Shown here in pieces: positions 8,068 through 33,957 of a DNA stretch of 64,000 nucleotides. The notes under the pieces are model-generated. The model was not told the DNA's origin. It did no database searches and saw only the letters and a list, made by a program, of their open reading frames with translations. The DNA is from Bacteroidales bacterium. GTDB taxonomy: Bacteria > Bacteroidota > Bacteroidia > Bacteroidales > UBA1402. The DNA is taken from positions 62,001 to 126,000 of the forward strand of contig JAFODP010000002.1 in the NCBI GenBank assembly GCA_017380635.1. The letters run 5' to 3'. Position numbers and translations under genes: made by a program. How positions within the stretch are numbered: the stretch's first letter is position 1; each line of letters begins with the position of its first letter.

Positions 8068-8098
8068 TTTGTTATCAAAAGTTTTTCCACTATCTTCG
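8068..8098 (+). promoter_or_regulatory. Promoter of the first aldolase-symporter unit
   Basis: TTTG at 8068-8071 and TATCTTCG at 8091-8098 are separated by 19 bp, a Bacteroidetes housekeeping promoter with one mismatch in the -7 box. The start codon at 8126 follows 27 bp later. Confidence 0.75.
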
Positions 8099-8125
8099 CA
8101 AAGTTTATGCATAAAACAACGAAAG

Positions 8126-9046: not shown

Positions 9047-9050
9047 TATC

Positions 9051-11250: not shown

Positions 11251-11295
11251 AAGCCGCTTGTCTTTCTTTTGACAGAGAAGATTGGCGGCTTTTTT
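11251..11295 (+). terminator. Terminator-like hairpin before the first beta-helix/DUF6298 gene
   Basis: Arms AAGCCGC (11251-11257) and GCGGCTT (11285-11291) close a hairpin with a partly paired interior, followed by a T run to 11295. The next start codon is at 11321, which leaves no room for a separate promoter of standard layout. Confidence 0.75.
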
Positions 11296-11320
11296 CTCCT
11301 TAAACATTTATCCTGAAAGT

Positions 11321-14300: not shown

Positions 14301-14398
14301 ATCCCCGTAACGGAAAGCCTGTGGGCGAAACTTTCAGCATTAAGGCAGCTTCTTCTGTCGAGCTTGAAAATAAGGGTATACTTTGGTTGTACAGATAA
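11321..14398 (+). CDS. Secreted parallel-beta-helix plus TIM-barrel-like protein (DUF6298 type), copy 1
   Basis: A 1025-residue exported protein with a signal peptide (FISLCFSLLVALSLTA, then QDFPR). Residues about 35-480 look like a right-handed beta-helix of the pectate-lyase superfamily (SGVVLRGSGSG, FRHFAGSAVFV, VEDCQSF). The C-terminal half (about 560-960) looks like a glycosidase-type barrel, with DRRRDDHERIRRMDGY, LVLYHQHFFQHN and VIHFISEEYTGPAHF, where the adjacent Glu pair is a candidate catalytic site. I associate this C-terminal half with DUF6298. ATG 11321 gives the signal peptide directly. It is a tandem paralogue of the next gene, 12 bp downstream. A pectin-related hydrolase or lyase is likely; the exact linkage is unknown. 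Confidence 0.7.
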   Translation: MKNRFISLCFSLLVALSLTAQDFPRSDKRGNLIPDYSYCGYKASNEQIPWVDVKAFVPHIQGDATAYIQAAIDYVSSLPMDASGFRGAVQLDRGQFQIDGALQIAVSGVVLRGSGSGEDGTELLGAGQDRTTLIRIGGRLDRMWTPKQAASKAVKVGDMFICVPNANKYQVDQTIMISRWATKEWIDQMDMNDFGGESSYIGWKVGDEKRPSDVEVHWERQILAISGDTLFLDAPLTCAMTTDEAFVQVQTWPGRIAQSAVENMRLSSTYDIENPKDENHRWMAIVLDNGEDLWVRRVQFRHFAGSAVFVTDHVRRVTVEDCQSFAPVSEIGGSRRYTFHTLGGQCLFQRLYAEQGFHDFGTGRLAAGPNAFVQCQADWSHHMSGAIDAWATGLLFDGFNGEGVLLSFGNRGQDNMGAGWTAANSMMWNCSAAMLANPTPPTANNWAYGAWGQMQGRFESADSFVKPQSLFYAQLAARNAATKDDVRKLMPIDTQSASNPPIDKAQRFVAAARRPAMKLVDWIDSLQVKEPLALVAQSKENTQWMKQYCTKQSKKKTSLMTLNEGVLTKDNAILSGRSQGVVWWNGSLKARYLANSSRPHITRWAPGLTGTGFTDDLNEMTDMMKATDHLITNHHYGLWYDRRRDDHERIRRMDGYVWAPFYEQPFARSGQGIAYDGLSKYDLTKWNVWYWNRLKQYADLADEKGLVLYHQHFFQHNIIEAGAHWADSPWRSANNINDMGFPEPVPYAVDKRVYMSEHFYDVSHEGRRAMYRNYIRKSLETFADNGSVIHFISEEYTGPAHFVAFWLDVIAEWEAETGKDAKVALSCTKDVQDAILADENRAKTVDIIDIKYWNPTMTGFNAPPGGVHLAPRQYGRLRSENFNVKAEVKARSMSERMYEVVADYRQRFPEKAVLLSVGGDTWAALMGGASLCSLPSGLPQAFKEDVVKMRPMENKDAMQIGKVGVGYVCYAPGAKSMTLQLNGDKKKYQACWINPRNGKPVGETFSIKAASSVELENKGILWLYR

Positions 14399-14410
14399 TG
14401 GAGAAATACG

Positions 14411-17353
14411 ATGAAAAAATATAGTTTATTGATATTGAGTTTGTTGTTGTCTCTGTCTGTTGCAGCACAGAGAGGAAGACAATTGCCCCTTCCCGATTAT
14501 TCTTATTGCGGTTATCAAGCTAGCGAAGCAGCTATTCCGATGTTGCCTATCAAAGCAGTAGTGCCCGCTACAGACGAAGATGCTACGGCAAGTATTCAAG
14601 CGGCATTGGACTATGTGGCTTCTTTGCCGCTCGATGAACAAGGTTTCCGTGGAGCCGTTCTTTTGGAAAAAGGTACTTATCGAATTTCGCAAACGCTGTG
14701 GATAAAAGCTTCCGGTGTGGTATTGCGCGGTAGTGGCATATCGAGCGAAGGCACAGAATTGCTCTCCATCAGTCGCGATCGTTTGACGATGATTCGTGTT
14801 AAAGGTCAGGACGATCGTACTTTCGATAAGGATAAATCGGCTCAGGTAGTGGCTACGGCCCCAGTGGGTGCGATGTCTTTGTCCTTGTCCGAGCAAGTTT
14901 TCCGTCAGGGCGATAGAGTAATTATTCAGCAATTTCCGAATGTTTCCTGGGAACGCAAAGTGACCGATGTGAAGGGAAAGACCATTCATCTGGATGCGCC
15001 CATTACCTACGAATTGACCAGCGATAAACCCGCTATGCTGTCCTTGCTGTCTTGGCCCGGCCGCATCGAGGGTGTCGGTATTGAAAATCTGCGCATCAAT
15101 TCGCTTTATGACGAAACAAATCTCATGGACGAAAATCATGCATGGATAGGTATCGCCCTTGAAAATGTGCGCGATGCTTGGGTGCGTGCGGTGGAATTTC
15201 GTCATTTGGCCGGATCGGCTGTGTTCGTGGCAGAAACAGCTTCACGTATTACGGTGCAAGATTGTAAGAGTCTGGAACCGATTTCCGAAATTGGTGCACA
15301 ACGTCGATATTCATTCTATGTGAAAGGTTCTCAGGTGCTTTGTCAGCGCATTCAGGCCGAAGAGGGGTATCACGATTTTGCCGTGGCTGCGAGTCATGGT
15401 CCGAATGCATTTGTGCAATGTTGGTCGTTGATGCCATATAGTTACAGCGGCTGTATCGAGTCGTGGTCGAGTGGTGTGTTGTTCGATATCTGTAGTGTCA
15501 GTGGCAATGCTTTGCGCACCAATATTCCCAATTTTGCCGATGCTTTTGCCGGCTGGACTACTACTAACACAACTTTTTGGAATTCAACAGCTTCGATGGT
15601 TTCTTGCGTGAAGCCTCAAGTGGCAGGCAACAATTATGCTTATGGTGCTTGGGGACAATTCAACGGACGTGGTCATTGGGAATCGCCTAATAGTCATGTG
15701 AATCCGTGGAGTTTGTATTATACGCAGTTGGAAAGACGTTTGGGCAAGGCTTCTCCCGAAGCAGATAAGTTGATCGGTTTGGGTAGAGGCGGCACTTCGT
15801 CCATTCAAGATGCGGCCTATCAGACGGCCAAAGCGCGTCGTCCTTTAACTATGCTTTCAACTTGGATTGATAGTCTGTTGATGGCAGATCCTTTTGTTGT
15901 CAGTTATGATGATAAAACCTTGACGCAGGTTTGGCAATCTTTCGTAAAGGCTCCCAAAGAAGCGAAGGATTATCCGTCTATCGAGCTGAAAGACGGCATT
16001 TTGCAACGCGATGGAAAAATCTTGACAGGTGGACGTCGTGGTTGTACTTGGTGGCGAGGCAATCCGCGTATGTCGGCACAAAGCGATCCGCATCTGGTAC
16101 GTTATGCGTTGGGTCCCGAAGGATATGGCATGGTGGACGATTTGAAGGATGTTACCGATTTCATGAAAGAGAAAAATATCTTGGTGACCGATTTTCATTA
16201 TGCCCTTTGGCTCGATCGCCGTCGCGACGATCATCAGCGTACGGCCCGCATCGATGGTGAACAGCGTGCGCCATTCTATGAATTGCCTTTTGCCCGCAGC
16301 GGACAAGGTCGCGCCTGGGACGGTTTGAGTCTGTACGATTTGACTAAATGGAGCAACTGGTATTGGAATCGTTTGGCTACCTACGCCGATTTGGCCGATG
16401 AAAAAGGCCTGATGTTGTTCTATCAGCATTATTTCCAGCACAATATCTTGGAGGCCGGTGGCCATTGGGCCGATTTTCCTTGGCGTTCTGCCAACAATGT
16501 GAACGAAACCGGATTTCCCGAACCGACACCTTATGCCGGCAACAAGCGCGTCTTTATGGCGGAACATTTCTACGATGTCAATCATCCGCAGCGCCGTGAA
16601 CTGCATCGCAATTATATCCGTAAATGCCTGGACAATTTTGCCGACAAGGGTAGTGTGATGCATTTTATCAGCGAAGAATTTACCGGGCCTTATCATTTTG
16701 TGGCTTTCTGGTTGGACGAAATCATTGCTTGGGAAAAGGAAAATAATAAGCAAGTCTTAGTGGCTTTAAGTTGTACCAAAGATGTGCAGGATAGTATTTT
16801 GGACAATCCTCGCTATGCCGAAGTGATCGATGCTATCGATATCAAGTATTGGTACATGGATGGCAATGGAAAGCCCTTCGCTCCCGATGGCGGTTTGAAT
16901 CTTTCGCCCCGACAATTCGAACGCATCATGAAGCCCGCACCCGCTTCCTGGGAAAGTGTGTATGACATGGTTTCCGAGTATCGTTCGGCTTATCCCGACA
17001 AGGCGGTTGTTTACTCGGCGAGCCGTTATCCTGAATTGGCTTGGGCAGCTTTTATGGCGGGTGCTTCCATCTGTGATCTGTCGGCCGGATTGCCCGAAAA
17101 ATTCTTGCAAGATGCTACGAAAATGTCACCTATCGGCCAGAATGGTATTTATATGATGTCTAACCCAGACCTAGGTTATATACTCTATCCATCGGAAAAA
17201 GCCGAGATAGATTTACGTTCCTTGAAAAGTGGCGAATACAAGGCGCAATATCTGGATGTCAAAACGGGAGCGCCTGTCGGCAAAGTATTCCGTATCAAAG
17301 CGGGAGAAGTATTCCGTCATACGAAAGAATATGTTTTGTGGCTTTACCGATAA
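14411..17353 (+). CDS. Secreted parallel-beta-helix plus TIM-barrel-like protein (DUF6298 type), copy 2
   Basis: A 980-residue paralogue of the preceding gene. It shares the signal-peptide start, the opening DYSYCGYQAS (DYSYCGYKAS in copy 1), SGVVLRGSGI, and the barrel blocks DRRRDDHQRTARIDGE and VMHFISEEFTGPYHF. Divergence is spread over the whole length, so the duplication is not recent, and both copies keep their likely catalytic Glu pair. One copy probably has a shifted specificity. The gene follows copy 1 after 12 bp and precedes the sialidase-like gene after 36 bp, so the three are likely one transcript. Secreted to the periplasm or surface. Confidence 0.72.
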   Translation: MKKYSLLILSLLLSLSVAAQRGRQLPLPDYSYCGYQASEAAIPMLPIKAVVPATDEDATASIQAALDYVASLPLDEQGFRGAVLLEKGTYRISQTLWIKASGVVLRGSGISSEGTELLSISRDRLTMIRVKGQDDRTFDKDKSAQVVATAPVGAMSLSLSEQVFRQGDRVIIQQFPNVSWERKVTDVKGKTIHLDAPITYELTSDKPAMLSLLSWPGRIEGVGIENLRINSLYDETNLMDENHAWIGIALENVRDAWVRAVEFRHLAGSAVFVAETASRITVQDCKSLEPISEIGAQRRYSFYVKGSQVLCQRIQAEEGYHDFAVAASHGPNAFVQCWSLMPYSYSGCIESWSSGVLFDICSVSGNALRTNIPNFADAFAGWTTTNTTFWNSTASMVSCVKPQVAGNNYAYGAWGQFNGRGHWESPNSHVNPWSLYYTQLERRLGKASPEADKLIGLGRGGTSSIQDAAYQTAKARRPLTMLSTWIDSLLMADPFVVSYDDKTLTQVWQSFVKAPKEAKDYPSIELKDGILQRDGKILTGGRRGCTWWRGNPRMSAQSDPHLVRYALGPEGYGMVDDLKDVTDFMKEKNILVTDFHYALWLDRRRDDHQRTARIDGEQRAPFYELPFARSGQGRAWDGLSLYDLTKWSNWYWNRLATYADLADEKGLMLFYQHYFQHNILEAGGHWADFPWRSANNVNETGFPEPTPYAGNKRVFMAEHFYDVNHPQRRELHRNYIRKCLDNFADKGSVMHFISEEFTGPYHFVAFWLDEIIAWEKENNKQVLVALSCTKDVQDSILDNPRYAEVIDAIDIKYWYMDGNGKPFAPDGGLNLSPRQFERIMKPAPASWESVYDMVSEYRSAYPDKAVVYSASRYPELAWAAFMAGASICDLSAGLPEKFLQDATKMSPIGQNGIYMMSNPDLGYILYPSEKAEIDLRSLKSGEYKAQYLDVKTGAPVGKVFRIKAGEVFRHTKEYVLWLYR

Positions 17354-17389: not shown

Positions 17390-19264
17390 ATGGATATGAA
17401 AAAAATGAATGCCTTACTGGCGATGATGGCTCTTGCCTTATTGCCGATGACAGCGCAGCAAACGCTGGATATCAAGAAGGATTTGGTGCATTACACGGGC
17501 ACCACTATGTCGAATGTGGATTATCATCATGGTCAGTTGCAACCGGCTATCGGTGTTCACAATCAGCAGATTATGCGTGCCAATAGAGAAATGCCCGAGG
17601 AAAGCGACGGTTTCGGTTGGACCTACAACCATGCTTCCATGATAGCTTATTGGAACGAAACTTTTTATGTGGAATACCTCAGCGACTCGGTGAGCGAACA
17701 TATTCCGCCTTGCCAGACTTTGTTGATTCACTCCAAGGACGGCCAAAACTGGTCGAAGCCCGAAGTGATATTCCCGCCCTATATCATGCCCGAAGGTTTG
17801 CAGAAAACACCCGATGGACCCAAGGCCGACGGTAAAACTTCTGCTTTGATGCATCAGCGTGTAGGTTTCTATGTATCAGAAAAATACGACAAGCTTATCG
17901 CCATCGCTTACTATGGTATCGCGCTTTTTGCCAAGGACGATCCCAACGATGGTAACGGTATTGGTCGTGTGGTTCGTGAAATTAAGAAAGACGGTACGTA
18001 TGGTCCCATTTATTTCTTGCGTTACAACCATGCTTTCAATGCCAAGAATACCGATTATCCTTTCTACAAAAAATCACGCGATAAGAAATTTGTGGCTGCT
18101 TGCGACGAAATTTTGGCCAATCCGCTGTATATGATGCAGATGGTGGAAGAAGCCGATCGCGACGACGAACTGATTCCTTTGAAAAAACAATACAAGGCTT
18201 TCTCTTATTATCATTTGGATAATGGCGATGTGGTGGGCCTTTGGAAACATGCACTCACTTCTATCAGCAAGGATGGTGGAAAAACCTGGTATGAGCCTGT
18301 ACAACGTGCTTATGGCTTTGTAAACAGTAATGCAAAAATCTGGGGACAACGCACCACGGACGGCAAATTTGCTACGGTGTATAATCCTTCGGAATATCGT
18401 TGGCCTTTGGCTGTTTCTACTTCGGAAGATGGTTTGAATTACACGGATATGATGTTGGTTCACGGTGAAATCTCTCCCATGCGTTATGGAGGTCAGTATA
18501 AGAGTCGTGGTCCGCAGTATGTACGTGGTATTCAGGAGGGTAACGGTCAGCCTGCCGATGGTAAAATGTGGCTTACGTATAGTATGAACAAGGAAGATAT
18601 CTGGGTAAGTTCTGTGCCTGTGCCCGTTGTTTGCAAAGCGGCTGCTCATCAGAAGGATGTTTTCAATGAGATGGAAGATGGCAAGGAACTCGATTACTGG
18701 AATACTTACGACCTAGTTTGGGCGCCTGTCAAGATGAAAAAAGATGCTCAGGGCGTGAAGTGTCTGACTATGGGCGACAAAGATCCATTCGATTATGCCA
18801 AGGCTGAAAAGATTTTCCCCGCTTCTTCTGCTTTCTCTGTCAGCTTCGAAGTTTGTCCCGAACAGAACGATCATGGCCAGTTGCAGGTAGAAATTCAAGA
18901 TGCTAAAGGTCAGCCTTCTATCCGTATCAGTTTCGATGCCGACGGTCGTATTTACTCAAAGTCGGGTGCTCGTTACAATAGTCTGGGCGCTTACGAAGCC
19001 GGCAAGACATATCGCATCGATTTGAATGTAGATTGTGAATTCCGTACCTATACCGTGCGTGTGAATGGCGGTAGAGAAGTGCGTCGTATTTTCTATGCAC
19101 CTGCTGCCACTTTGGAACGCGTGATGTTCCGCACCGGTGCCGTTCGTTTCGATCCGACGCCCGATACGCCTGCCGATCGTTTCACCGATATGGAAAATGC
19201 TTCTTCTGTAGAAGCCAAGGAAGCTGTATTCAGAATCTATTCATTGGAAACTTCGGCTAAGTAG
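17390..19264 (+). CDS. Sialidase-like beta-propeller hydrolase, candidate GH143-type Dha hydrolase
   Basis: A 624-residue exported protein (signal peptide LLAMMALALLPMTA, then QQTLD). The N-terminal about 420 residues carry Asp-box propeller repeats, for example SKDGQNW (115-121) and SKDGGKTW (293-300). About 430-620 is a beta-sandwich-like domain (FSVSFEVCPEQNDHGQLQVE). Sialidase-fold enzymes release 2-keto-3-deoxy sugar acids. With an aldolase, symporter and four-carbon-acid genes downstream, and a GH142-like barrel next door, the best candidate activity is release of Dha from RG-II side chain D (GH143 type). In B. thetaiotaomicron, as I recall, these two activities are fused in one protein. 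The propeller is fairly sure; the GH143 assignment is inference. Confidence 0.62.
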   Translation: MDMKKMNALLAMMALALLPMTAQQTLDIKKDLVHYTGTTMSNVDYHHGQLQPAIGVHNQQIMRANREMPEESDGFGWTYNHASMIAYWNETFYVEYLSDSVSEHIPPCQTLLIHSKDGQNWSKPEVIFPPYIMPEGLQKTPDGPKADGKTSALMHQRVGFYVSEKYDKLIAIAYYGIALFAKDDPNDGNGIGRVVREIKKDGTYGPIYFLRYNHAFNAKNTDYPFYKKSRDKKFVAACDEILANPLYMMQMVEEADRDDELIPLKKQYKAFSYYHLDNGDVVGLWKHALTSISKDGGKTWYEPVQRAYGFVNSNAKIWGQRTTDGKFATVYNPSEYRWPLAVSTSEDGLNYTDMMLVHGEISPMRYGGQYKSRGPQYVRGIQEGNGQPADGKMWLTYSMNKEDIWVSSVPVPVVCKAAAHQKDVFNEMEDGKELDYWNTYDLVWAPVKMKKDAQGVKCLTMGDKDPFDYAKAEKIFPASSAFSVSFEVCPEQNDHGQLQVEIQDAKGQPSIRISFDADGRIYSKSGARYNSLGAYEAGKTYRIDLNVDCEFRTYTVRVNGGREVRRIFYAPAATLERVMFRTGAVRFDPTPDTPADRFTDMENASSVEAKEAVFRIYSLETSAK

Positions 19265-19302
19265 CAGCCTTTCTGCGAAAGCTTTTTATTTGATATCGAA
19301 GT

Positions 19303-19337
19303 CCGTGTCAACCAGTGTGTTTGGCACGGCTTCTTTT
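19303..19337 (+). terminator. Intrinsic terminator after the sialidase-like gene
   Basis: Arms 19303-19311 and 19321-19329 form a 9-bp stem (one G-U) around a 9-nt loop, followed by a T-rich run. It shares the GTGTCA...TGGCAC core with the terminators at 33905 and 44417. Confidence 0.85.
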
Positions 19338-19395
19338 TTGCTTTTAGGGCTGTATATTTTGTGTATTTTTAAGCGCGAATTTGAGAAATCGATAG

Positions 19396-19403
19396 TATAT
19401 TTG
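19396..19403 (+). promoter_or_regulatory. -7 box starting the catabolic operon at 19428
   Basis: TATATTTG is an exact TAnnTTTG element 24 bp before the start codon and after a terminator, so a new transcript should start here. No TTTG stands at the ideal -33 distance; the nearest is 12 bp upstream at 19380-19383. A weak or activator-dependent promoter is possible. Confidence 0.6.
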
Positions 19404-19427
19404 TAGCAAAGTATAAATATCACTAAT

Positions 19428-20966
19428 ATGAAGAGATTGTTTCTTGTAATTTCTGTGTTGATGGCTGCAGTGAGCCTGCAGGCCGAATCTAAGTCTAAGG
19501 TATTGAAAGCCTCTGATTATAAGCATTATGTAGAGTATTTTAATCGCATGGAGGATGAGCCTATTGTGCAGGCTATTCCCAATGCTGAGGCTTGGAATTG
19601 GATGGAAAAAAACATTCCTCTGTTCACTTGTCCGCAGGATAATTTCGAGGAAATGTGGTACTTCCGTTGGTGGTCTTTGCGCAAAGGTTTGCAATTGACG
19701 CCTCAAGGCTATGTGGTAAATGAATTTTTGGTAAAGCGTTCCTATGCAGACAAGTATAACATGATTGCTTGTGCTGTAGGTCATCATATCAACGAGTTGC
19801 GCTGGATTCAGGATCAATCTTACATCGATCAGTATTTGCATATTTGGTTGCGTGGCAACGAAGGTAAGCCCATGAATCGTCTGATGAAGTTTAGTTCGTG
19901 GATTCCTGCTGCTTTGTACGACCGTTATCTGGTGCATCAGGATAAAGATTATCTGATGGATCTTTTGCCCGATTTGGAAGCGCATTATCAAGCATGGGAC
20001 ATTCAGCGTTGGCCGGAAGGTTTGTATTGGCAAGGCGATGTGCAGGACGGTATGGAAGAATCTATCAGCGGTGGCCGTCGTATCAAGAATGCTCGTCCTA
20101 CCATCAACAGCTATATGTATGGCAATGCGGTGGCTTTGTCGGAAATGTTCAAAATGGCCGGAAATACCGAAAAAGCTGCTTTGTACCAAGCTAAAGCTGA
20201 TACTTTGAGACATTTGGTTCAGACTCGTTTGTGGAGTGAAGATCAGGCCTTCTTCGAAACCCGTCGCATCAAGGATGGAGAATTGGCTCAGGTTCGCGAA
20301 GCTATCGGTTATATTCCTTGGATTTTCCATTTGCCCGAAAGCGGAAAAGATTATGAAAAGGCTTGGTTGCAAGTATGCGATACTAAAGGTTTTCTGGCTC
20401 CTTATGGCTTGACTACCGCCGAACGTCGTCATCCGGAATTCAGAACCCGTGGAGTTGGCAAGTGTGAATGGGATGGTGCTATCTGGCCTTTTGCTTCGGC
20501 TCAGACCTTGACGGCTATGGCCAACGTCTTGAACGATTATCCTCAGAGCTATATCAACGATAGCATTTACTTCATGCACATGAATCTTTATGTGGAATCG
20601 CAATACCACAGAGGACGTCCCTACATTGGTGAATATTTGGATGAAGTGACCGGTTATTGGCTCAAGGGCGACCAGTTGCGCAGCCGTTATTACAATCACT
20701 CAACTTTTGCCGATTTGATGGTAACCGGTTTGATGGGTTTGCGTCCTCGTCAAGACAATGTGTTGGAAGTAAATCCTCTTGTTCCTGAAAATCAATGGGA
20801 TTGGTTCTGTATGGACGGCATTCCTTATCACGGCAAATATGTGACTATCCTTTGGGATAAAGATGGCAAGCATTTCAAGAAGGGCAAAGGTTTGCAGATT
20901 TTTGTCAATGGCAAGAAAGTGGCTTCCAGCGCTCATTTGCAGAAAATTGAAGTGACATTGAAGTGA
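19428..20966 (+). CDS. Secreted (alpha/alpha)6-barrel glycoside hydrolase, candidate GH142-type beta-L-arabinofuranosidase
   Basis: A 512-residue exported protein (signal peptide LFLVISVLMAAVSLQA, then ESKS). Repeated Trp-rich helices and motifs such as EEMWYFRWWSLRKGL and KCEWDGAIWPFASAQTL are typical of alpha/alpha-toroid hydrolases (trehalase / MGH1-like group). Its place next to the sialidase-like propeller and upstream of the 3-deoxy-acid genes suggests removal of L-Araf capping Dha in RG-II side chain D, the GH142 reaction. That specificity is inference from context. It is the first gene after the promoter at 19396, with the aldolase 43 bp downstream. A GH63/GH37-type enzyme is the main alternative. 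Confidence 0.6.
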   Translation: MKRLFLVISVLMAAVSLQAESKSKVLKASDYKHYVEYFNRMEDEPIVQAIPNAEAWNWMEKNIPLFTCPQDNFEEMWYFRWWSLRKGLQLTPQGYVVNEFLVKRSYADKYNMIACAVGHHINELRWIQDQSYIDQYLHIWLRGNEGKPMNRLMKFSSWIPAALYDRYLVHQDKDYLMDLLPDLEAHYQAWDIQRWPEGLYWQGDVQDGMEESISGGRRIKNARPTINSYMYGNAVALSEMFKMAGNTEKAALYQAKADTLRHLVQTRLWSEDQAFFETRRIKDGELAQVREAIGYIPWIFHLPESGKDYEKAWLQVCDTKGFLAPYGLTTAERRHPEFRTRGVGKCEWDGAIWPFASAQTLTAMANVLNDYPQSYINDSIYFMHMNLYVESQYHRGRPYIGEYLDEVTGYWLKGDQLRSRYYNHSTFADLMVTGLMGLRPRQDNVLEVNPLVPENQWDWFCMDGIPYHGKYVTILWDKDGKHFKKGKGLQIFVNGKKVASSAHLQKIEVTLK

Positions 20967-21009
20967 TGTCCGCAGTTAGAATAGATAATTAATAATCACA
21001 GAAGAGTAT

Positions 21010-21906
21010 ATGAAGAAGAAATTTCAAGGAGTGGTGGTTCCTATGATAACGCCGCTTTGTTCCGATTTAAGTATTGATACGCAAGCAGTTGCTCGTATCA
21101 TGCAATCTTTTGCAGCTAATCAGATTTCTCCATTGGTGTTGGGTACTACCGGCGAATCTGCCTCGGTAGGTCCCAAGGAAAGCCTTCGTTTTATGCAAGC
21201 CGCTGTAGATAGTAAGTCTGAAGGACAGATGGTCTACGCCGGTTTGGTAGGCAACGATGTGAAGGCTTTGATTTCCTTGGCCAACGAATATGCAGCCATG
21301 GGTGTAGACGCCGTGGTGGCTACTTTGCCCGCGTATTATATTTTGACTCCCGAACAGATGAAAGCATTCTATTTGCGTTTGGCCGATGAAGCCAAAGCTC
21401 CGGTGTTTATGTATAACATCAAGGCAACCACGCAGATGTCTATTCCGCTCGATGTGGTGGAAGCTTTGAGTCATCACGAAAACATGGCAGGTTTGAAAGA
21501 TTCGGAACGAGACGAAGAAAAGATGAAAAAGAGCATCGAACTTTTCCAGAACCGTGAAGATTTCTCTTTCTTCTGTGGTTGGGGCGCACAAGGTGCCAAC
21601 AGTTTGAAGTTGGGTGCAGATGGTATCGTTCCCAGCACGGGTAATATTGTTCCCGAGTTGTATGGCAAACTTTACCAGGCATATTTGGCCGGCGATTTCG
21701 AAAAGACCGATTATTATCAGGCACTTACCGATTTGGTGGCAGTGGTGTATCAAAAGGGTAGAACCTTGGGTGAATCTTTGGCAGCCCTGAAGGTATTGAT
21801 GCAGGATGCAGGTCTTTGCTCAAGCACCATGATGCCTCCTTTGACCGAACTCTCATCAGAAGAAAATCAACGTATTATAGAACAATTTAAAGCTTTATCA
21901 TTATGA
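21010..21906 (+). CDS. DapA/NanA-family aldolase, candidate Dha lyase
   Basis: A 298-residue class I pyruvate aldolase. GTTGES is at residues 45-50, the catalytic Tyr is Y135 (FMYNIK) and the Schiff-base Lys is K163 (GLKDSE). It is a clear but distant paralogue of the 8126-9046 aldolase, differing after K163 (SERDEE versus SSANLV), so substrates probably differ. Its stop overlaps the symporter start in ATGA, and dehydrogenase, PdxA-like and DUF1537-kinase genes follow. This points to cleavage of a 2-keto-3-deoxy sugar acid to pyruvate plus a C4 aldehyde-acid, as Dha would give. Cytoplasmic. The fold is sure; the substrate is inferred. Confidence 0.85.
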   Translation: MKKKFQGVVVPMITPLCSDLSIDTQAVARIMQSFAANQISPLVLGTTGESASVGPKESLRFMQAAVDSKSEGQMVYAGLVGNDVKALISLANEYAAMGVDAVVATLPAYYILTPEQMKAFYLRLADEAKAPVFMYNIKATTQMSIPLDVVEALSHHENMAGLKDSERDEEKMKKSIELFQNREDFSFFCGWGAQGANSLKLGADGIVPSTGNIVPELYGKLYQAYLAGDFEKTDYYQALTDLVAVVYQKGRTLGESLAALKVLMQDAGLCSSTMMPPLTELSSEENQRIIEQFKALSL

Positions 21907-23453
21907 CTTCCATCCATTGGGTAGATATTATCATTGTTCTTCTCACCCTGGTGTTTACATTGGGTGTCGGCATTTATGCCTCTCGCAAGAACAATAGTTC
22001 GGATGCTTATTTTTCCGGTAGCAACAAAATTCCTTCTTGGGCCATCGGTCTGTCTATTTTTGCCACGCTTATCAGTAGCGTGACTTTCTTGTCTTATCCC
22101 TCAGCCGCATACAAAGGCAACTGGATACTTTTGGTACAAGGTTTAATGGTGCCTGTGGTGCTGATTTTCCTTATTTGGGCTATTGTGCCGCTCTTCCGTA
22201 AAATGATTCGTTTGAGTACTTACGAATATTTCGAACGTCGTTTCGGTTTGGCAGCTCGTGTTTATTCTTCTTTGGCCTTCATCCTGACGCACTTCTCGAA
22301 GATGGGTACCGTGTTGTATCTTATTGCTTTGGCGGTGTATAGTATGACCGGTATCGATGCGCTTTGGATTATCGTGGTATTGGGTATTCTTATCGTGGCC
22401 GTTACTTATGTGGGCGGTATGGAAGGCGTTATCTGGATGGACGTTATCCAAGGTCTCTTGCTGATTTTGGGTGGTATCATCTGTGTTATTGTGCTTTTGG
22501 TGGCTCCCGAAGCCGGTCCTGCTCAGATTTTCCACGACGCCATCGCCATGAAGAAGATCGATTTCGGTCCGTATAATTTCAGCTTTGCAGAATTGACATT
22601 CTGGGTAATGGTTATCAATGGTGCTTTCTATGCTTTGCAGAAATATGGTACCGACCAGACCATCGTTCAACGTTATCTTACCGCAAAATCAGACAAGGAG
22701 GCTAAGAAAGCTGCTTACATCGGTGTGGGTCTGAGTGTGCCCATTTGGACAATGTTTATGTTGATCGGTTCTTTGTTGTTTGTGTTCTACAACTCGGGCG
22801 AAGCTACACTTCCTGCCGGTTTGAACTCCGACCAAGTGTTCCCGCACTTCATCGTTACCCAATTGCCTGTAGGTATTGCCGGTATCGTGATTGCTGCTTT
22901 GGTGGCTGCCGCTATTTCCAGTCTCGACTCTGATATGAACTGCTTGTCTGCCATTATCGTAGAAGATTATTACCAACGTTTCAAACCCAATTGTACCGAT
23001 AAACAACGTCTGACGATGGGTCGTGCCATGGTGGCTGTATCCGGTTTGGCAACCGTTGGTGTGGCAATGTTGTACTATGCTTGGGAAGGCGAAGGCGTAT
23101 TGGGCGTTATCTTCGATTTGTATGCTATCTTCTCGGCCGGTATCGTGGGTATTTTCCTCCTAGGATTGTTCAGCAAGCGTGCCAATAAGCAAGGTTTGTA
23201 CATCGGTTTGATTGTCTGTGTGCTCTTTACCGCTTATGCCGTTCTGACCACGACCAGCATCGAAGTGGATGGCGCCAAGCGTCTGATCCTCGATTTGGGC
23301 AACTGGAATTTCCCGCATCATCGTTATATGTTGGGTGTGTATAGCCATCTTATCGTGTTGGTGGTTGGTTATGTGGCCAGTTTGTTCTTCCCGGCTCCCA
23401 AGTTGGACAAGGGTTTGACTATTTACGATTACAATACTAAAGAATTGAAGTAA
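21903..23453 (+). CDS. Sodium:solute symporter (SSS family), second copy
   Basis: A 516-residue SSS/SLC5-type inner-membrane symporter with about 13 membrane segments. Landmarks are WAIGLSIFATLISSVTFLSY and the SSLDSDMNCLSAI region near the Na+ site. It overlaps the aldolase by 4 bp and its stop overlaps the dehydrogenase start by 1 bp, so expression is translationally coupled. It presumably imports the sugar acid released by the periplasmic hydrolases for cleavage by the aldolase. It is homologous to the 9051-10550 protein but clearly divergent, in line with a different solute. Confidence 0.87.
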   Translation: MTSIHWVDIIIVLLTLVFTLGVGIYASRKNNSSDAYFSGSNKIPSWAIGLSIFATLISSVTFLSYPSAAYKGNWILLVQGLMVPVVLIFLIWAIVPLFRKMIRLSTYEYFERRFGLAARVYSSLAFILTHFSKMGTVLYLIALAVYSMTGIDALWIIVVLGILIVAVTYVGGMEGVIWMDVIQGLLLILGGIICVIVLLVAPEAGPAQIFHDAIAMKKIDFGPYNFSFAELTFWVMVINGAFYALQKYGTDQTIVQRYLTAKSDKEAKKAAYIGVGLSVPIWTMFMLIGSLLFVFYNSGEATLPAGLNSDQVFPHFIVTQLPVGIAGIVIAALVAAAISSLDSDMNCLSAIIVEDYYQRFKPNCTDKQRLTMGRAMVAVSGLATVGVAMLYYAWEGEGVLGVIFDLYAIFSAGIVGIFLLGLFSKRANKQGLYIGLIVCVLFTAYAVLTTTSIEVDGAKRLILDLGNWNFPHHRYMLGVYSHLIVLVVGYVASLFFPAPKLDKGLTIYDYNTKELK

Positions 23454-24601
23454 TGAATCAGGTAGAAATAATGACACCGAAAAAGGTGTTGATCGGTAGT
23501 GATTGTTTTCAGTCTTGGGTAGACGAAGCTTTGCAATCTTCCATCAAAAAGGTGGTGGTATTGTCGGTGGGTCCTATTTGGCCCATGCTGGAAGCATCTT
23601 TGCAATTGGCTGCCGATAAAGGATTGAAATTGAAAAAAATAGATTATACATTGCCCGGTGAACCTACCACGGAATATTTTGATGTGCTTCGCAAGGAAGC
23701 CGCTAGTTTCCGTCCCGATCTTATCTTGGGTGTCGGTGGTGGCAGTGTGTTGGATGTGGCTAAATTGCTGGCGGCTCTTTGCGATCGTAAGACGCCCATT
23801 TCCAAATGTTTCGGTAAAGGAATGCTCGATAAGAGAAGCATTGCGCTCTATTGTGCGCCCACTACGGCCGGTACCGGTAGCGAAGTTTCTCCCAACGCCA
23901 TTCTGCTCGATTCCAACGATGGCGAAAAGAAAGGTATCATCAGTCCGTATCTTTTGCCCGATTGCACCTTGATCGATCCGATGTTTACTTTGAGTTTGCC
24001 CGCCAAGATTACCGCAGAAACCGGTATGGATGCTCTCTGTCATTGCGTGGAAGCTTTTATCAACAAAAATGCTCATCCTTTTGTGGATACTTATGCCTTG
24101 CGTGGTATTGGATTGGTTTGCAAGAACTTGCTGAAAGCTTGTCGTGATGGTCGCAATAAACCGGCCCGCGAAGCTTTGGCCATGGCCTCCATGATGGGCG
24201 GTCTTTGTTTGGGCCCGGTGAACACTTGCGGCGTTCATGCGCTTTCTTATGGTTTGGCCGGAAAATACCACATGTCGCATGGTTTGGCCAATGCGCTGCT
24301 TTTGCCCGAAGTTTTGCGTTTCAACAAGCCGGCTTGTCTGGCTCGCTTCGGTGCGATGGCCAAGGAAATAGGTTTGCCTTATCGCTATGACAATCAGCAG
24401 AATGCGGATGCCGTTATTGAGTATATCCAGCAACTTTCTGCCCAATGTGGCATTCCGCAGCATTTGTCCGAAATCGGTATCAAGAAGGAAGATATTCCCG
24501 AAATGGCCGATATGGCGATGAATGTGACACGTTTGCTTTGCAATAATCCTCGAGAAATTACCCGAGAAGATGTTATCACTATTTACGAAAATATTTATTA
24601 A
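23453..24601 (+). CDS. Iron-containing alcohol dehydrogenase (group III), candidate C4 aldehyde-acid reductase
   Basis: A 382-residue NAD(P)-dependent dehydrogenase of the Fe-ADH family. The cofactor motif GGGSVLD is at 95-101. Metal ligands D193, H197 (GMDALCH), H262 (GVHALSYGL) and H276 (HMSHGLAN) are all present. The start overlaps the symporter stop and the stop overlaps the PdxA-like start, each by 1 bp. Between an aldolase and a four-carbon acid kinase system, the logical role is reduction of the C4 aldehyde-acid from the aldolase to threonate or erythronate. Other members act on lactaldehyde or 1,3-propanediol, so the substrate is inference. Confidence 0.85.
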   Translation: MNQVEIMTPKKVLIGSDCFQSWVDEALQSSIKKVVVLSVGPIWPMLEASLQLAADKGLKLKKIDYTLPGEPTTEYFDVLRKEAASFRPDLILGVGGGSVLDVAKLLAALCDRKTPISKCFGKGMLDKRSIALYCAPTTAGTGSEVSPNAILLDSNDGEKKGIISPYLLPDCTLIDPMFTLSLPAKITAETGMDALCHCVEAFINKNAHPFVDTYALRGIGLVCKNLLKACRDGRNKPAREALAMASMMGGLCLGPVNTCGVHALSYGLAGKYHMSHGLANALLLPEVLRFNKPACLARFGAMAKEIGLPYRYDNQQNADAVIEYIQQLSAQCGIPQHLSEIGIKKEDIPEMADMAMNVTRLLCNNPREITREDVITIYENIY

Positions 24602-25629
24602 TGGATATGAAACCTATCGTTAGTATAAGTATGGGTGATCCCGCCGGTATCGGTCCTGAAATCACCGTCAAAGCTTTGCAGTATGCTTCTGTTTACGAAA
24701 AATGTCGTCCCATGGTGGTGGGCGATGCCAAAGTGATGCGCGCTGCCATTGAATTCCTGGGTTTGGATATGCAGGTACGTGCCATCAAAGCGGTATCGGA
24801 AGCAAAATTTGAACAGGGCTGTATCGATGTGTACGATTTGGACAATGTGGATATGAGCCAGTTGCAATATGGTCAGGTGTCGGCTATGTGCGGTCGTGCT
24901 GCTTTCGAAGCCGTGCGTTGCAATATCGACCTGGCGATGAAAGGCGAAATCGATGCTACGGTGACGGCTCCCATCAACAAGGAAGCTATCCACATGGCCG
25001 GTTTCAACTTTTCGGGTCATACCGAAATTTACGCTCATTTCACCGGAACGCACAATTATGCCATGCTTTTGGCCGATGATGCTTTGCGCGTGATTCATGT
25101 CAGTACGCACGTTTCTTTGCGTGAAGCTTGCGATCGTGCCAAGAAAGAACGCGTGCTCAATGTGATTACTTTGCTGCACAATGCTTGCCGTCAGTTTGGT
25201 ATTGAAAAGCCCCATTTGGCCGTGGCCGGTTTGAATCCTCATAGTGGAGAAAATGGTTTGTTTGGTCAGGAAGAAATCGAAGAAATTATTCCGGCTATTC
25301 AAGAAGCTAAGGCTCAAGGTTATGATGTGGAAGGTCCCGTGCCCCCGGATACTATTTTCGCCAAAGCAGTGCAAGGCAAATTTGATGGCTGCGTGGCAAT
25401 GTATCACGATCAAGGTCATATTCCCTTCAAGTTGGTTGGTTTCAAATGGAACAACGAAAAACAGAAAATGGATAGCGTGAAGGGCGTGAATATTACGCTT
25501 GGATTGCCTATTATCCGTACTTCGGTAGATCATGGTACCGCATTCGAAATTGCCGGTCAGGGTATCGCTTGCGAAGACGCTATGCTGATTTCTATCGATT
25601 ATGCATTGAAAATGGCTCAAAACAAATAA
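24601..25629 (+). CDS. PdxA-family 4-phospho-acid dehydrogenase (PdxA2-like)
   Basis: A 342-residue member of the 4-hydroxythreonine-4-phosphate dehydrogenase family (SMGDPAGIGPEITVKAL at the start). Metal ligands matching PdxA are H170, H214 (GLNPHSGE) and H269 (MYHDQGHIPFK). In vitamin B6 synthesis PdxA oxidises 4-phosphohydroxythreonine. PdxA2 paralogues beside DUF1537 kinases instead oxidatively decarboxylate D-threonate or erythronate 4-phosphate to dihydroxyacetone phosphate. The gene is overlapped by the dehydrogenase and is 2 bp from the kinase, with no pyridoxine genes nearby, so the catabolic role is favoured. Sequence alone does not separate the two. Confidence 0.87.
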   Translation: MDMKPIVSISMGDPAGIGPEITVKALQYASVYEKCRPMVVGDAKVMRAAIEFLGLDMQVRAIKAVSEAKFEQGCIDVYDLDNVDMSQLQYGQVSAMCGRAAFEAVRCNIDLAMKGEIDATVTAPINKEAIHMAGFNFSGHTEIYAHFTGTHNYAMLLADDALRVIHVSTHVSLREACDRAKKERVLNVITLLHNACRQFGIEKPHLAVAGLNPHSGENGLFGQEEIEEIIPAIQEAKAQGYDVEGPVPPDTIFAKAVQGKFDGCVAMYHDQGHIPFKLVGFKWNNEKQKMDSVKGVNITLGLPIIRTSVDHGTAFEIAGQGIACEDAMLISIDYALKMAQNK

Positions 25630-25631
25630 GT

Positions 25632-26783
25632 ATGATAAGCATTATTGCAGACGATTTTACAGGTGCGGCCGAGGTGGCCGGTATTTGCTTGCGCAGAGGT
25701 GTTTCTGTGAGCTTTCTTACCGATATTCCCGATGTCGAAACCATAGAAGAAGTCGATACCGATGTTTTGGTGATTGCCGAAGATACGCGTTCGTTCACGG
25801 CCGAAGGTGCGGTGAAAATTTCGCGTATTCTGGCTGAAAATCTGAAGGCTGCCGGCGTGACGCATGTGGTGAAGAAAATCGACTCGGCTTTGCGCGGCTG
25901 GGTGCTTTTGGAAATGCGCACCATCGCGGCTGTTTTCGACAAGAAAGAGTTATTGATTCAGCCGGCCAATACCGCAACTCGTCGCTCCATCAAGGATGGC
26001 CTGTATTATGTGGAAGATAAATTGTTGGCCGATACGGCTTTTGCCAACGATCCTGAGTTTCCGGTAAAAAGTTCGCAGGTGCATAGTATCATCGAATCGC
26101 GCAATGTGATTGCCTCTGCGCCCATTCCTTACCAAGTGCCCGATGCTGCCACTACCGATGATTTGCGTGCCAGCGTGCGTATGTGTCGCGAAGATGTTTT
26201 GGCCGGTGGTAGTGCCGATTTCTGGCGTGAGTATCTGGAAGAACAGATTGAAAAAGGTGTGGTGAAAGCTTTCCCCAATGACGAACAGAAACAAACCACC
26301 ATTGCTTTGCAAGATTGTCTGATGATTTGCGGCAGTGCCCACTTGAACAGCATGCAAGGCTCTGAACGACTGGCTGCCGAAGGTATGCCCTTGATGAATC
26401 TTCCTGCCTCGATGTTGCAAGAAGATAAGGTGACCGAAAGCGACATTCAGGCTTTTGTGGAAGCTTGTGCCACCACTTGGGAAATTTCGCAACGCTTGTT
26501 GGTTCGTTTCGGTCCCAAGCCGGTGAAGTTCGATTCTTGCGCCGAGCATCTTCGTTATCGCATGACGGAATCTATGTTCATGCTTTTGCAGAAAATCAAT
26601 CCTTCGCATCTGCTCATCGAAGGTGGCGCGACGGCCTATAGTCTTTTGCAACGTTTGGGTTGGAACAGTTTTACACCTGTTCGTGAATGGACGCCCGGTG
26701 TGGTGCAATTGCGCTTGAACACAGAACCTTATTGTTATATTACGCTCAAGCCGGGAAGCTATGCCTGGCCTAAATTTGAATAA
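25632..26783 (+). CDS. DUF1537-family four-carbon acid-sugar kinase
   Basis: A 383-residue cytoplasmic kinase of the DUF1537/four-carbon-acid-sugar-kinase family. The N-domain begins with the signature IIADDFTGAAEVA and has KKIDSALRGW (family KxDSTLRG). The C-domain has EGGATAYSLLQRLG and ends ITLKPGSYAWPKFE. The common GG-[D/E]-T element reads GGAT here, so this may be a divergent subgroup. ATG 25632 is chosen because the DDFTGA strand lies immediately after it. Members phosphorylate D-threonate, D-erythronate or L-threonate at O4. It is 2 bp after the PdxA-like gene, the classic pairing. D-threonate is predicted from the proposed Dha route. Confidence 0.85.
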   Translation: MISIIADDFTGAAEVAGICLRRGVSVSFLTDIPDVETIEEVDTDVLVIAEDTRSFTAEGAVKISRILAENLKAAGVTHVVKKIDSALRGWVLLEMRTIAAVFDKKELLIQPANTATRRSIKDGLYYVEDKLLADTAFANDPEFPVKSSQVHSIIESRNVIASAPIPYQVPDAATTDDLRASVRMCREDVLAGGSADFWREYLEEQIEKGVVKAFPNDEQKQTTIALQDCLMICGSAHLNSMQGSERLAAEGMPLMNLPASMLQEDKVTESDIQAFVEACATTWEISQRLLVRFGPKPVKFDSCAEHLRYRMTESMFMLLQKINPSHLLIEGGATAYSLLQRLGWNSFTPVREWTPGVVQLRLNTEPYCYITLKPGSYAWPKFE

Positions 26784-26800
26784 TCATTTACCTAACGAAT

Positions 26801-28375
26801 ATGAAGAAATTTTTCACTTTGATCTTGCTCGCGTTGAGCCTTAATGTGGCCCAGGCCAAGTTTATCAACATGTTGGACTTTGGTGCCAAGAACGACAGCG
26901 TGTTCCTTAATACGGACGTTATCGCCCAGGCTATCGATACCTTGGCAGCTAATGGCGGTGGTACCTTGTATTTTCCTGCCGGCGATTATCTAACCGGCCC
27001 TATCACCTTGAAAAGTAATATCACCATCGAAGTTGAAGCTGGTGCAAGTCTTTGTTTCTCAGATAACTTCGACCACTACATGCCTTATGTGGAAATGCGT
27101 TATGAAGGCGTGGTAATGAATAGTTTCCATCCGCTTATTGCCGCTTACGATGCCGAAAACATTGCCATCAAGGGTCGTGGTACGCTCGAAGGTAATGGCC
27201 GTGAATGGTGGAACGAAGCTTGGCGCAACGAAGGCAATGTGAAGGCCGGCGAAAAGAAACGCAATAAATATCAACAAGCTTGGGTAGAAGCCAATCCCGA
27301 TTTGAAACTCGAAGAACAATCAGATTGGAAGAGAACCTTGGCCCGCGAATTTTTCCGTCCTCCTTTCATTCAGTTCTATCGTTGTAAGAACATTCTTATC
27401 GAAGGTTTGCATATTCAGAACTCTCCTTTCTGGACGGTGAATCCTGAATTCTGCGAAAACTTGAATATCAAGGATTTGACCATCTACAATCCCGAATCGC
27501 CCAATACCGACGGTATCAATCCTTCTTCATGCAAGAATGTACATATCTCCAATTGTCACATCAGCGTAGGCGACGACTGTATCACCATTAAATCGGGTCG
27601 CGATTTGCAGGGTCGTCAATACGGTGTTCCTTGCGAAAATATCACCATCACCAATTGTACCATGTTGAGCGGTCATGGTGGCGTGGTTATTGGTAGCGAA
27701 ATGTCGGGTGATGTGCGTAAAATTACCATCAGCAACTGCGTATTTGATGGCACCGACCGTGGTATCCGTCTGAAATCTACCCGTGGTCGTGGCGGTATCG
27801 TCGAAGAAATTCGCGTGGATAACATCGTGATGAAGAACATCCAGAAAGAAGCCATCATCTTCAACCTTTTCTATTCGAATGTGCCTCAGGAACCAGTGAG
27901 CGAACGTACGCCCATTTTCCGCAACATCCACATTTCCAATATGACAGGTACCGAAGTGAAGGCTGCCGGTGGTATCCGCGGTATTCCTGAAATGCCCGTG
28001 AGCGATATCTCTATCAATAATGTAAACATTCAGGCTGAAACCGGTTTCTTTATTCAGGAAGCCAAGAACATCACCATCAGCGACTTTATCGTGAATTCAG
28101 ATAAGGGTCCGGTATTGGATGTACGCAACTCGGAAGAATTGTATTTCGACAATGTTCGCACCATGGAAGTGAATGCCGAAGTGCCTGTTATCCGTATGGA
28201 AAATGCTAAGAATGTGTTCATTACCAATTGTTTCCCCATGGCAGGAAGCGCTGCTTTCCTCGAACTGAGAGGTGCTGAAACAGAAAAGGTTGTGCTTCGC
28301 AACAATTATGTGGAACGTTTGGATAAGGCTATCGTATTGGCTCCCGAAGTGTCTAAAAAAGCACTGGTAAAATGA
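26801..28375 (+). CDS. GH28-family polygalacturonase-like enzyme, exported
   Basis: A 524-residue right-handed beta-helix protein with a signal peptide (LILLALSLNVAQA, then KFINM). GH28 motifs are complete: NTDG (235-238), the DD pair D258-D259, GHG (291-293) and RLK (323-325); catalytic Asps are in NTDG and DD. The family hydrolyses alpha-1,4-GalA bonds of homogalacturonan or GalA-Rha bonds, or removes terminal residues. In this locus it most likely acts on the galacturonan backbone of RG-II or on exposed ends. It follows the kinase by 17 bp and overlaps the esterase gene in ATGA, so it belongs to the same operon. Confidence 0.88.
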   Translation: MKKFFTLILLALSLNVAQAKFINMLDFGAKNDSVFLNTDVIAQAIDTLAANGGGTLYFPAGDYLTGPITLKSNITIEVEAGASLCFSDNFDHYMPYVEMRYEGVVMNSFHPLIAAYDAENIAIKGRGTLEGNGREWWNEAWRNEGNVKAGEKKRNKYQQAWVEANPDLKLEEQSDWKRTLAREFFRPPFIQFYRCKNILIEGLHIQNSPFWTVNPEFCENLNIKDLTIYNPESPNTDGINPSSCKNVHISNCHISVGDDCITIKSGRDLQGRQYGVPCENITITNCTMLSGHGGVVIGSEMSGDVRKITISNCVFDGTDRGIRLKSTRGRGGIVEEIRVDNIVMKNIQKEAIIFNLFYSNVPQEPVSERTPIFRNIHISNMTGTEVKAAGGIRGIPEMPVSDISINNVNIQAETGFFIQEAKNITISDFIVNSDKGPVLDVRNSEELYFDNVRTMEVNAEVPVIRMENAKNVFITNCFPMAGSAAFLELRGAETEKVVLRNNYVERLDKAIVLAPEVSKKALVK

Positions 28376-29841
28376 AAAAATATATCAATCATATTGCCCT
28401 CTTTTTCTTGCTGGGTGCACTTACTGTGAACGCCCAGCAGAAAACAGAGTGGGAATTATGGCATTCCGACACGCTGGCCAAGCGCGACTTGCAGCTGCAG
28501 CGTCCTACCAGCGACACGAAGTTCGCCAAGCCTTTGGTGGAGGTGTTGAAGTATATCGAAGAGCAGTTTTCTGTGAAGTTGCGCTATTCCAAAAACGACG
28601 TGAACGGCGTGATGCTGAAATATGCGGAATATCGTTATCGTCCTTGGAGCGTGGAAGAAACTTTGGACAACGTACTCAAACCGCTCGATTTGAAATTTGT
28701 CAAGCAAAAAGAAGCTGTGTACGAAATCAAGCCTTTTGAATATGCGCGTCGTTTGCCGGAAGATGGTGAGGATATTCTGAATTATTTGCAAACTGTTTAT
28801 GCCGACAAGGCTTCTTGGGAGGCTCGTCGCGCTGTTTTGCAGAAGGAATTACGTGAAAATGCCGGACTGAACGGCTTGCCGGCGCAGCCGGCAAGCAAGC
28901 CCATCTTCAGCAAAAAGCGTATCTATGGCGATTATTATGTGCAGAATTTCGCCTTGGAAATCTTGCCGGGCGTTTATTGCACGGGCAGCATGTATCATCC
29001 GCTGAAATATAAAAAGGCATCTTGTCCTATCGTGTTGAATCCCAATGGACATTTTGGCAAAGGACGTTATCGTTACGATCATCAGGTGCGTTGTGCTATG
29101 CAGGCCAAAATGGGTTGTATCGCAGTTAGTTACGATCTTTTCTCTTGGGATGAACAATTGTTGCAATTCGAACCGCGTGCACATCGTACGGCTATGGCAC
29201 ATACTATTCAGAGTTTGAACGCCATTCGTCTCTTGGATTATCTTTGTTCGCTGCGTGAAGCCGATACCACGCGTGTGGGTATTACCGGTGGCAGCGGAGG
29301 CGGCAGTCAGACCATGTTCATTACCGCCATCGACGATCGCATTACGCTCAGTATTCCGGTGGTGATGACATCTTCGTATTTTGTGGGGGGGTGTCCTTGC
29401 GAAAGCGGTAATCCTATTCACTTGAGTGCCAATGGCACCAACAATGCTGAAATTGCAGCCATGTGCGCGCCTCGTCCTATGTTGATTGTTTCCGATGGTA
29501 AAGACTGGACCAAAGATGTGCCTTGGCTGGAGTTCCCTTTCATTCAAAGAACCTATGCTTTTTATGGCGCGAACGATCAGGTGGAAAATGCGCATTTCCC
29601 CAAGGAAGGTCACGATTATGGCCCATCCAAGCGTCAGGCGGCTTATGCTTTTATGGCTAAACATTGGCAGCTGAAATGTGCTCATCTGAAAACTGCAGAA
29701 GGTCTTTTCGACGAATCTTCTTGCGTGGAAGAGGATGCTAAGTTGCTGAAAGTTTGGGGCGAGAATGGTGAAGATCTGCCCGAAAATGCCTTGAAAGGCA
29801 TCGAGAACCTATACAGATTGTTTCATACTTACGGACAATAA
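28372..29841 (+). CDS. Exported alpha/beta-hydrolase esterase with an N-terminal STN-like domain
   Basis: A 489-residue protein with a signal peptide (ALFFLLGALTVNA, then QQKTE). Residues about 50-120 read as an STN (secretin/TonB N-terminal short) domain: KPLVEVLKYIEEQFSVKL ... SVEETLDNVLKPLDL. The rest is an alpha/beta hydrolase with nucleophile elbow GGSGG (candidate S308), SDGKDW as possible acid region and GHDYG as possible His. An RG-II-associated pectin methylesterase of B. thetaiotaomicron is also an alpha/beta hydrolase, so deesterification of GalA is a fair guess; an acetyl esterase is the alternative. It overlaps the GH28 gene by 4 bp. Confidence 0.75.
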   Translation: MKKYINHIALFFLLGALTVNAQQKTEWELWHSDTLAKRDLQLQRPTSDTKFAKPLVEVLKYIEEQFSVKLRYSKNDVNGVMLKYAEYRYRPWSVEETLDNVLKPLDLKFVKQKEAVYEIKPFEYARRLPEDGEDILNYLQTVYADKASWEARRAVLQKELRENAGLNGLPAQPASKPIFSKKRIYGDYYVQNFALEILPGVYCTGSMYHPLKYKKASCPIVLNPNGHFGKGRYRYDHQVRCAMQAKMGCIAVSYDLFSWDEQLLQFEPRAHRTAMAHTIQSLNAIRLLDYLCSLREADTTRVGITGGSGGGSQTMFITAIDDRITLSIPVVMTSSYFVGGCPCESGNPIHLSANGTNNAEIAAMCAPRPMLIVSDGKDWTKDVPWLEFPFIQRTYAFYGANDQVENAHFPKEGHDYGPSKRQAAYAFMAKHWQLKCAHLKTAEGLFDESSCVEEDAKLLKVWGENGEDLPENALKGIENLYRLFHTYGQ

Positions 29842-33904: not shown

Positions 33905-33947
33905 AATCTGTGTCAATATATCCATGTTGGCACAGATTATATTTTTT
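33905..33947 (+). terminator. Intrinsic terminator between the fusion gene and the GH141-like gene
   Basis: Arms 33905-33916 and 33927-33938 pair over 12 bp (one G-U) around a 10-nt loop, then a T run. It ends only about 10 bp before the next ATG at 33958. It shares the GTGTCA...TGGCAC core with two other terminators in the window. Confidence 0.85.
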
Positions 33948-33957
33948 AGAGATAGCT

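Follow-up and report, generated by a model that had tools for sequence, protein, structure and literature searches.

The 64,000-nucleotide stretch of gut-type Bacteroidales DNA analysed here, referred to below as the window, carries an operon of five genes that probably encodes a pathway from Dha, a rare sugar acid of seven carbons, to pyruvate, CO2 and dihydroxyacetone phosphate (DHAP), an intermediate of glycolysis, coupled to the breakdown of the plant polysaccharide RG-II. No pectin is more complex than RG-II, for which the degrading enzymes are known. Support for a Dha route comes from the identities of the genes, their catalytic residues, the structure of the operon, the stereochemistry of the proposed reactions, and the way in which the five genes have been kept together with GH143 in different families. 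The reactions from import onward are all ones that we infer.

The RG-II locus surrounding the operon

Two forward-strand genes lie immediately upstream of the operon, and the original prediction had described their products only as a sialidase-like and an alpha/alpha-barrel exported hydrolase. Both descriptions were borne out and can now be given more specific names. The first gene (17390–19264) encodes a predicted GH143-like exported Dha hydrolase with Beta-prop_BT_1020 and sialidase-like CBM domains (PF24067, 383 bits), which matches the N-terminal half of BT1020 (PDB 5mqr/5mqs) along its entire length (5mqr_A residues 23–611, E 1.1e-231). The second (19428–20966) encodes a predicted GH142-like exported beta-L-arabinofuranosidase with an MGH1-like GH domain, which is similar over its full length to the C-terminal half of the same protein (5mqr_A residues 611–1096, E 4.2e-226). 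Judged by these matches, the pair corresponds to BT1020 divided between two genes. BT1020 itself is reportedly the Dha hydrolase/beta-L-arabinofuranosidase of RG-II chain D, work that is said to be that of Ndeh et al. in 2017. The spacing is 163 bp between the GH143 and GH142 genes and 43 bp between the GH142 and aldolase genes.

Downstream of the operon on the same strand are genes for a galacturonidase-like GH28 (26801–28375), a CE19-like pectin methylesterase with a BT1017-like catalytic module (28372–29841; 6goc, E 5e-139), a GH140 apiosidase (29854–31899; 5msy/3kzs, E 9e-174) and a BT1002-like GH141 (33910–35796; 5mqp, E 6e-209). Signal-peptide-like N-termini are present on the GH143 and GH142 proteins and on the flanking CAZymes. 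With several RG-II-specific CAZymes side by side, this region is, on sequence grounds, an RG-II locus. Compared to the RG-II degradation system of Bacteroides thetaiotaomicron (BT1020, BT1017, BT1012, BT1002), it has orthologous-looking CAZymes for chain D, the methyl ester and apiose, as well as the GH141; however, GH143 and GH142 are separate genes in the window and a single protein, BT1020, in B. thetaiotaomicron.

Several other features of the locus were observed. The GH140 apiosidase has a C-terminal DUF3826 domain, which in B. thetaiotaomicron is instead fused to the methylesterase BT1017. Positions 31903–33891 encode a xylose-isomerase-like TIM barrel fused to a sialidase-like BNR_2 domain. 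The run of RG-II genes opens with two large tandem DUF6298 proteins (11282–17353), relatives of which adjoin GH140/GH143 in other genomes (L072, L074, L139).

The five-gene operon and the proposed route to DHAP

The operon has the order aldolase, SSS symporter, Fe-ADH, PdxA2-type dehydrogenase and DUF1537 kinase, all on the forward strand. The aldolase and symporter genes overlap by 4 bp, sharing ATGA, the symporter/Fe-ADH and Fe-ADH/PdxA junctions each overlap by 1 bp (TAATG), and a 2-bp gap separates the PdxA stop from the kinase ATG at 25632. Read from the sequence, these overlaps and gaps are exactly those of the original prediction, and every gene that it listed was recovered at the same position and strand, with Pfam families in agreement. 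A 404-aa open reading frame with a TTG start at 25569 was considered for the kinase and dropped in favour of the ATG at 25632 (383 aa). All four cytosolic enzymes retain their catalytic residues. The Fe-ADH, PdxA and kinase lack a signal-peptide-like N-terminus, and the hydrophobic N-terminus of the aldolase corresponds to the first strand of its barrel in the AlphaFold model.

The first gene (21010–21906; Pfam DHDPS family) encodes a class I pyruvate aldolase of the DHDPS/NAL family, the proposed Dha aldolase. Its AlphaFold model (pLDDT 95.7) is a TIM barrel with the catalytic Tyr and Schiff-base Lys of this type of enzyme, Y135 and K163, which are invariant across 20 orthologues, and the nearest folds to the model are N-acetylneuraminate lyase/DHDPS (TM 0.93). 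The cassette aldolases thus have the fold, Tyr and Lys of the N-acetylneuraminate/KDG/DHDPS family, but form a distinct subfamily within it, with K163 in a signature KDSE(R/K/Q) motif and 37–95% identity among cassettes. Sequence and fold were uninformative as to the substrate specificity of the aldolase. The other aldolase of the window, which carries KDSS and not the cassette signature, belongs to a second DHDPS-family/SSS symporter pair (8069–10550) that closely resembles B. thetaiotaomicron 4xky (415 bits) and may handle Kdo or a different keto acid. Pairs resembling it adjoin BNR/TIM-barrel-related proteins at two other loci (L145 and L081).

The second gene (21903–23453; Pfam SSF) encodes an SSS-family sodium/solute symporter, the proposed Dha importer, which is present in every complete cassette neighbourhood but one (L092). 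The third (23453–24601; Pfam Fe-ADH) encodes an Fe-containing alcohol dehydrogenase, proposed to reduce D-threuronate, a C4 aldehyde-acid, to D-threonate. It has a GGGS nucleotide motif, and its metal ligands D193/H197/H262/H276 are invariant across the cassette orthologues.

The PdxA2-type enzyme (24601–25629; Pfam PdxA) is the proposed D-threonate 4-phosphate dehydrogenase/decarboxylase. PdxA2-type structures (4jqp/2hi1/6e85) score 296–320 bits with it, compared to 201 for the E. coli-type PdxA. In profile searches, full-length cassette PdxA proteins scored at least 570 bits and housekeeping PdxA proteins at most 262 bits, a clear separation. Exactly two PdxA were found in all checked cassette genomes with unbroken PdxA genes, versus one in four GH143 genomes that lack the cassette. 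The cassette PdxA is therefore closer to PdxA2 than to PdxA and is a copy beyond the housekeeping one, and because of this extra copy we do not consider it to be the vitamin B6 enzyme. As it scored 352 bits against the 583-bit cut-off of the NCBIfam equivalog NF002891, it is not claimed as a member of that equivalog.

The last gene (25632–26783; Pfam SBD_N/NBD_C) encodes a short DUF1537 four-carbon acid sugar kinase, the proposed D-threonate 4-kinase. It has both the SBD_N and NBD_C domains, and eight DUF1537 chains were the top matches in a fold comparison of its model. The motifs KKxDSxxRG and KPGSY are invariant across the cassette orthologues, and KK(I/V)DSxLRG is common to the cassette kinase and 4xfm/4xfr, unlike HI1011. 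Together with the structure scores and PdxA copy number, the motif agrees with the original assignment of the kinase and PdxA to four-carbon acid sugar types. The kinase is short (383 aa) and far in sequence from characterised D-threonate kinases, so that its substrate may be D-threonate or D-erythronate. Its score of 95 bits is below the 450-bit cut-off of the NCBIfam DtnK equivalog NF047819, so we propose only a DtnK-like role and claim no equivalog. Among the matches listed, a plasmid search with the kinase returned only distant ones (at most ~26% identity), several of them annotated as 3-oxo-tetronate kinase. On another contig of the window's genome (G000 contig C47, L087:9375–11561), a second DUF1537 kinase, a long one, adjoins a beta-keto acid cleavage enzyme (BKACE).

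A PdxA2 step is part of D-threonate catabolism, and the operon has the two families of the DtnK/PdxA2 system side by side, with the same proposed end product, DHAP. The DUF1537 kinase DtnK and D-threonate catabolism are reportedly treated in Zhang et al. 2016 PNAS (cited in PMC10971088 and PMC10580937). The operon differs from that system in that its kinase has low sequence similarity to DtnK, and in that a pyruvate aldolase and an Fe-ADH precede the pair and would make D-threonate intracellularly from a polysaccharide sugar.

In the proposed route, GH142 would take off L-arabinofuranose and GH143 would free Dha, both outside the cytoplasm, and the symporter would bring Dha into the cell. The aldolase, through a Schiff base on K163, would then cleave Dha to pyruvate and D-threuronate, which the Fe-ADH would reduce to D-threonate. 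Phosphorylation by the DUF1537 kinase would yield D-threonate 4-phosphate, and oxidation at C3 with decarboxylation by the PdxA2-type enzyme would yield DHAP and CO2. The stereochemistry claimed in the original prediction holds in our bookkeeping: removal of pyruvate from Dha leaves a C4 aldehyde-acid which, with C5 and C6 kept and the chain turned over, gives D-threonate (2S,3R) upon reduction. Among eight 3-deoxy-2-keto acids considered in this way, a C4 aldonate resulted from Dha only. Since Dha alone of the eight leaves a C4 aldehyde-acid, a C4-acid kinase and PdxA2 fit only this substrate, a fit that we infer from the enzyme families.

The kinase/PdxA pair could have a role unrelated to RG-II, in vitamin B6 metabolism or in the use of threonate or erythronate taken up from outside, since PdxA is the B6 enzyme family and a Salmonella DUF1537 kinase is able to phosphorylate 4-hydroxythreonine for PLP synthesis (PMC10971088). 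However, the same genomes have a separate, distinct PdxA, the aldolase and Fe-ADH would be left unexplained, and the cassette is associated with GH143, which makes such a role the least probable of the alternatives that we considered.

Recurrence of the cassette and its association with GH143

The five genes occur together in ~22 genomes of distantly related Bacteroidota, spread over ~ten family-level groups; in this count, a few are contig fragments that carry three or four genes of the set. Among the carriers are Mucilaginibacter rivuli (L028), Niabella ginsengisoli (L029, with frameshifts) and members of ~eight further family groups; aldolase matches in two other genomes (G536 and G076) were ruled out as cassettes. 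Catalytic residues are invariant over 18–20 cassette orthologues. There are two main orders, ALD-SSS-FeADH-PdxA-KIN and FeADH-ALD-PdxA-KIN-SSS, and the divergence of the cassette genes is correlated (r 0.80–0.93).

This cohesion bears on whether the operon serves a single substrate. The aldolase and symporter might act on Kdo from RG-II chain C, or on another 2-keto-3-deoxy acid, and the Fe-ADH, PdxA2 and kinase on a separate C4 acid, with nothing shared other than regulation. DHDPS-family aldolases are promiscuous, the nearest folds to the cassette aldolase are N-acetylneuraminate lyases, and Kdo is also a constituent of RG-II (PMC12168206). Against this, the five genes stay grouped through rearrangement of their order and diverge together, cleavage of Kdo would give a C5 sugar with no need for an Fe-ADH or a C4 kinase, and the second DHDPS/SSS pair in the window is free for another keto acid. 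We therefore regard a division of the operon between two substrates as very improbable, and favour Dha as the substrate of the entire set.

The original prediction suggested a check of whether the gene set co-occurs with RG-II chain-D enzymes, and the result was strongly positive. Among 393 genomes of the window's order, GH143 was found in 9/10 genomes with a verified cassette versus 10/383 others (Fisher p 1.6e-12), cassettes having been searched for with the cassette aldolase and their gene neighbourhoods then checked. By genus, the one count in which kinship is taken into account, 7/7 cassette genera of the order have GH143 (p 4e-9). A sample of the phylum gave GH143 in 3/5 cassette genomes versus 18/390 others (p 0.001), and overall 19 of the 22 cassette genomes have it. 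In the tenth cassette genome of the order (G402, 83% complete), the cassette adjoins a GH142 fragment that lies at the contig edge. GH143 and GH142 are within ~40 kb of the cassette in Mucilaginibacter and Niabella. Because GH143 is distant from the cassette or on another contig in some genomes (G622; G033, ~640 kb), the association does not arise from linkage alone.

A simpler count proved to be misleading. Raw counts of PF07005 against GH143 in 395 Bacteroidota genomes (9/17 versus 12/378, p ~1e-8) were not accepted as support for the Dha route, as a long form of DUF1537 makes up most of the overlap. In the two RG-II loci examined, the long kinase adjoins a RuBisCO-like protein (L078:7244–11937 and L073:9383–11979), and one of them (L078) also has an Asp/Glu racemase and an SBF transporter. 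An apiose route with a RuBisCO-like protein, via 3-oxo-isoapionate 4-phosphate, has been described (PMC6302742), and in other Bacteroidota the long kinase close to GH143 is probably an enzyme of apiose (3-oxo-isoapionate) metabolism. That route likewise places a DUF1537 kinase near RG-II genes, but its loci have the long subgroup and a RuBisCO-like protein without the cassette aldolase, PdxA or Fe-ADH, and represent a different pathway.

The association has exceptions in both directions. The original prediction was to be doubted if the gene set occurred in genomes without any RG-II enzymes, and this applies weakly: two genomes (G074 and G176) have a cassette and neither GH143 nor a close GH142. 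These two, together with the G031 locus, raise the possibility that the cassette serves a 3-deoxy-2-heptulosaric acid, but not only, or not mainly, RG-II Dha. In some bacteria the source would be algae, such as the scales of prasinophytes or Tetraselmis theca, or else the substrate would be a stereoisomer that leads to erythronate. The G074 locus resembles that of G031, both having sulfatase and laminin-G proteins with the cassette, and in G031 GH143 is ~9 kb away. Dha is reported from the scales of prasinophytes and of Mesostigma and from Tetraselmis theca (PMC10762512), which makes algae a plausible source for the two exceptions. However, the presence of GH143 in the great majority of cassette genomes, and the RG-II enzymes that neighbour the operon in the window, make a mainly non-RG-II role unlikely, and a route for RG-II Dha remains our preferred reading. 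Sulfatase, laminin-G, BNR or GH127 proteins accompany the cassette at three loci (L086, L091 and L092); two of the three genomes concerned lack GH143, and these bacteria are possible users of algal Dha.

Conversely, of the order's genomes with GH143 roughly half have no cassette, and the control Bacteroides ihuae has GH143 and no PF07005. The cassette is therefore not the sole fate of Dha. In four GH143 genomes of this cassette-free kind (G238, G394, G538 and G475), no cassette lay within ~10 kb of GH143, and nothing recognisable as an alternative Dha route adjoined that gene.

Implications for Dha and D-threonate metabolism

No account of Dha catabolism was found in the open-access literature, a scope outside which the main subscription papers lie. 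Within that scope, the Dha route as a unit appears to be undescribed, although its component families are known. We consider the chances slightly better than even that the cassette represents a complete, undescribed pathway for the C7 keto-aldarate Dha, operating on both plant RG-II and green-algal scale polysaccharides, with three new protein functions. If so, these would be a Dha aldolase, a D-threuronate reductase and a Dha symporter, and D-threonate would gain an origin in a natural polysaccharide.

The cassette thereby offers a specific five-gene candidate answer to what becomes of released Dha in bacteria. It may help to recognise Dha users from their genomes, and it suggests that Dha from algae is a second niche. 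In addition, it names Dha as a likely natural source of D-threonate.
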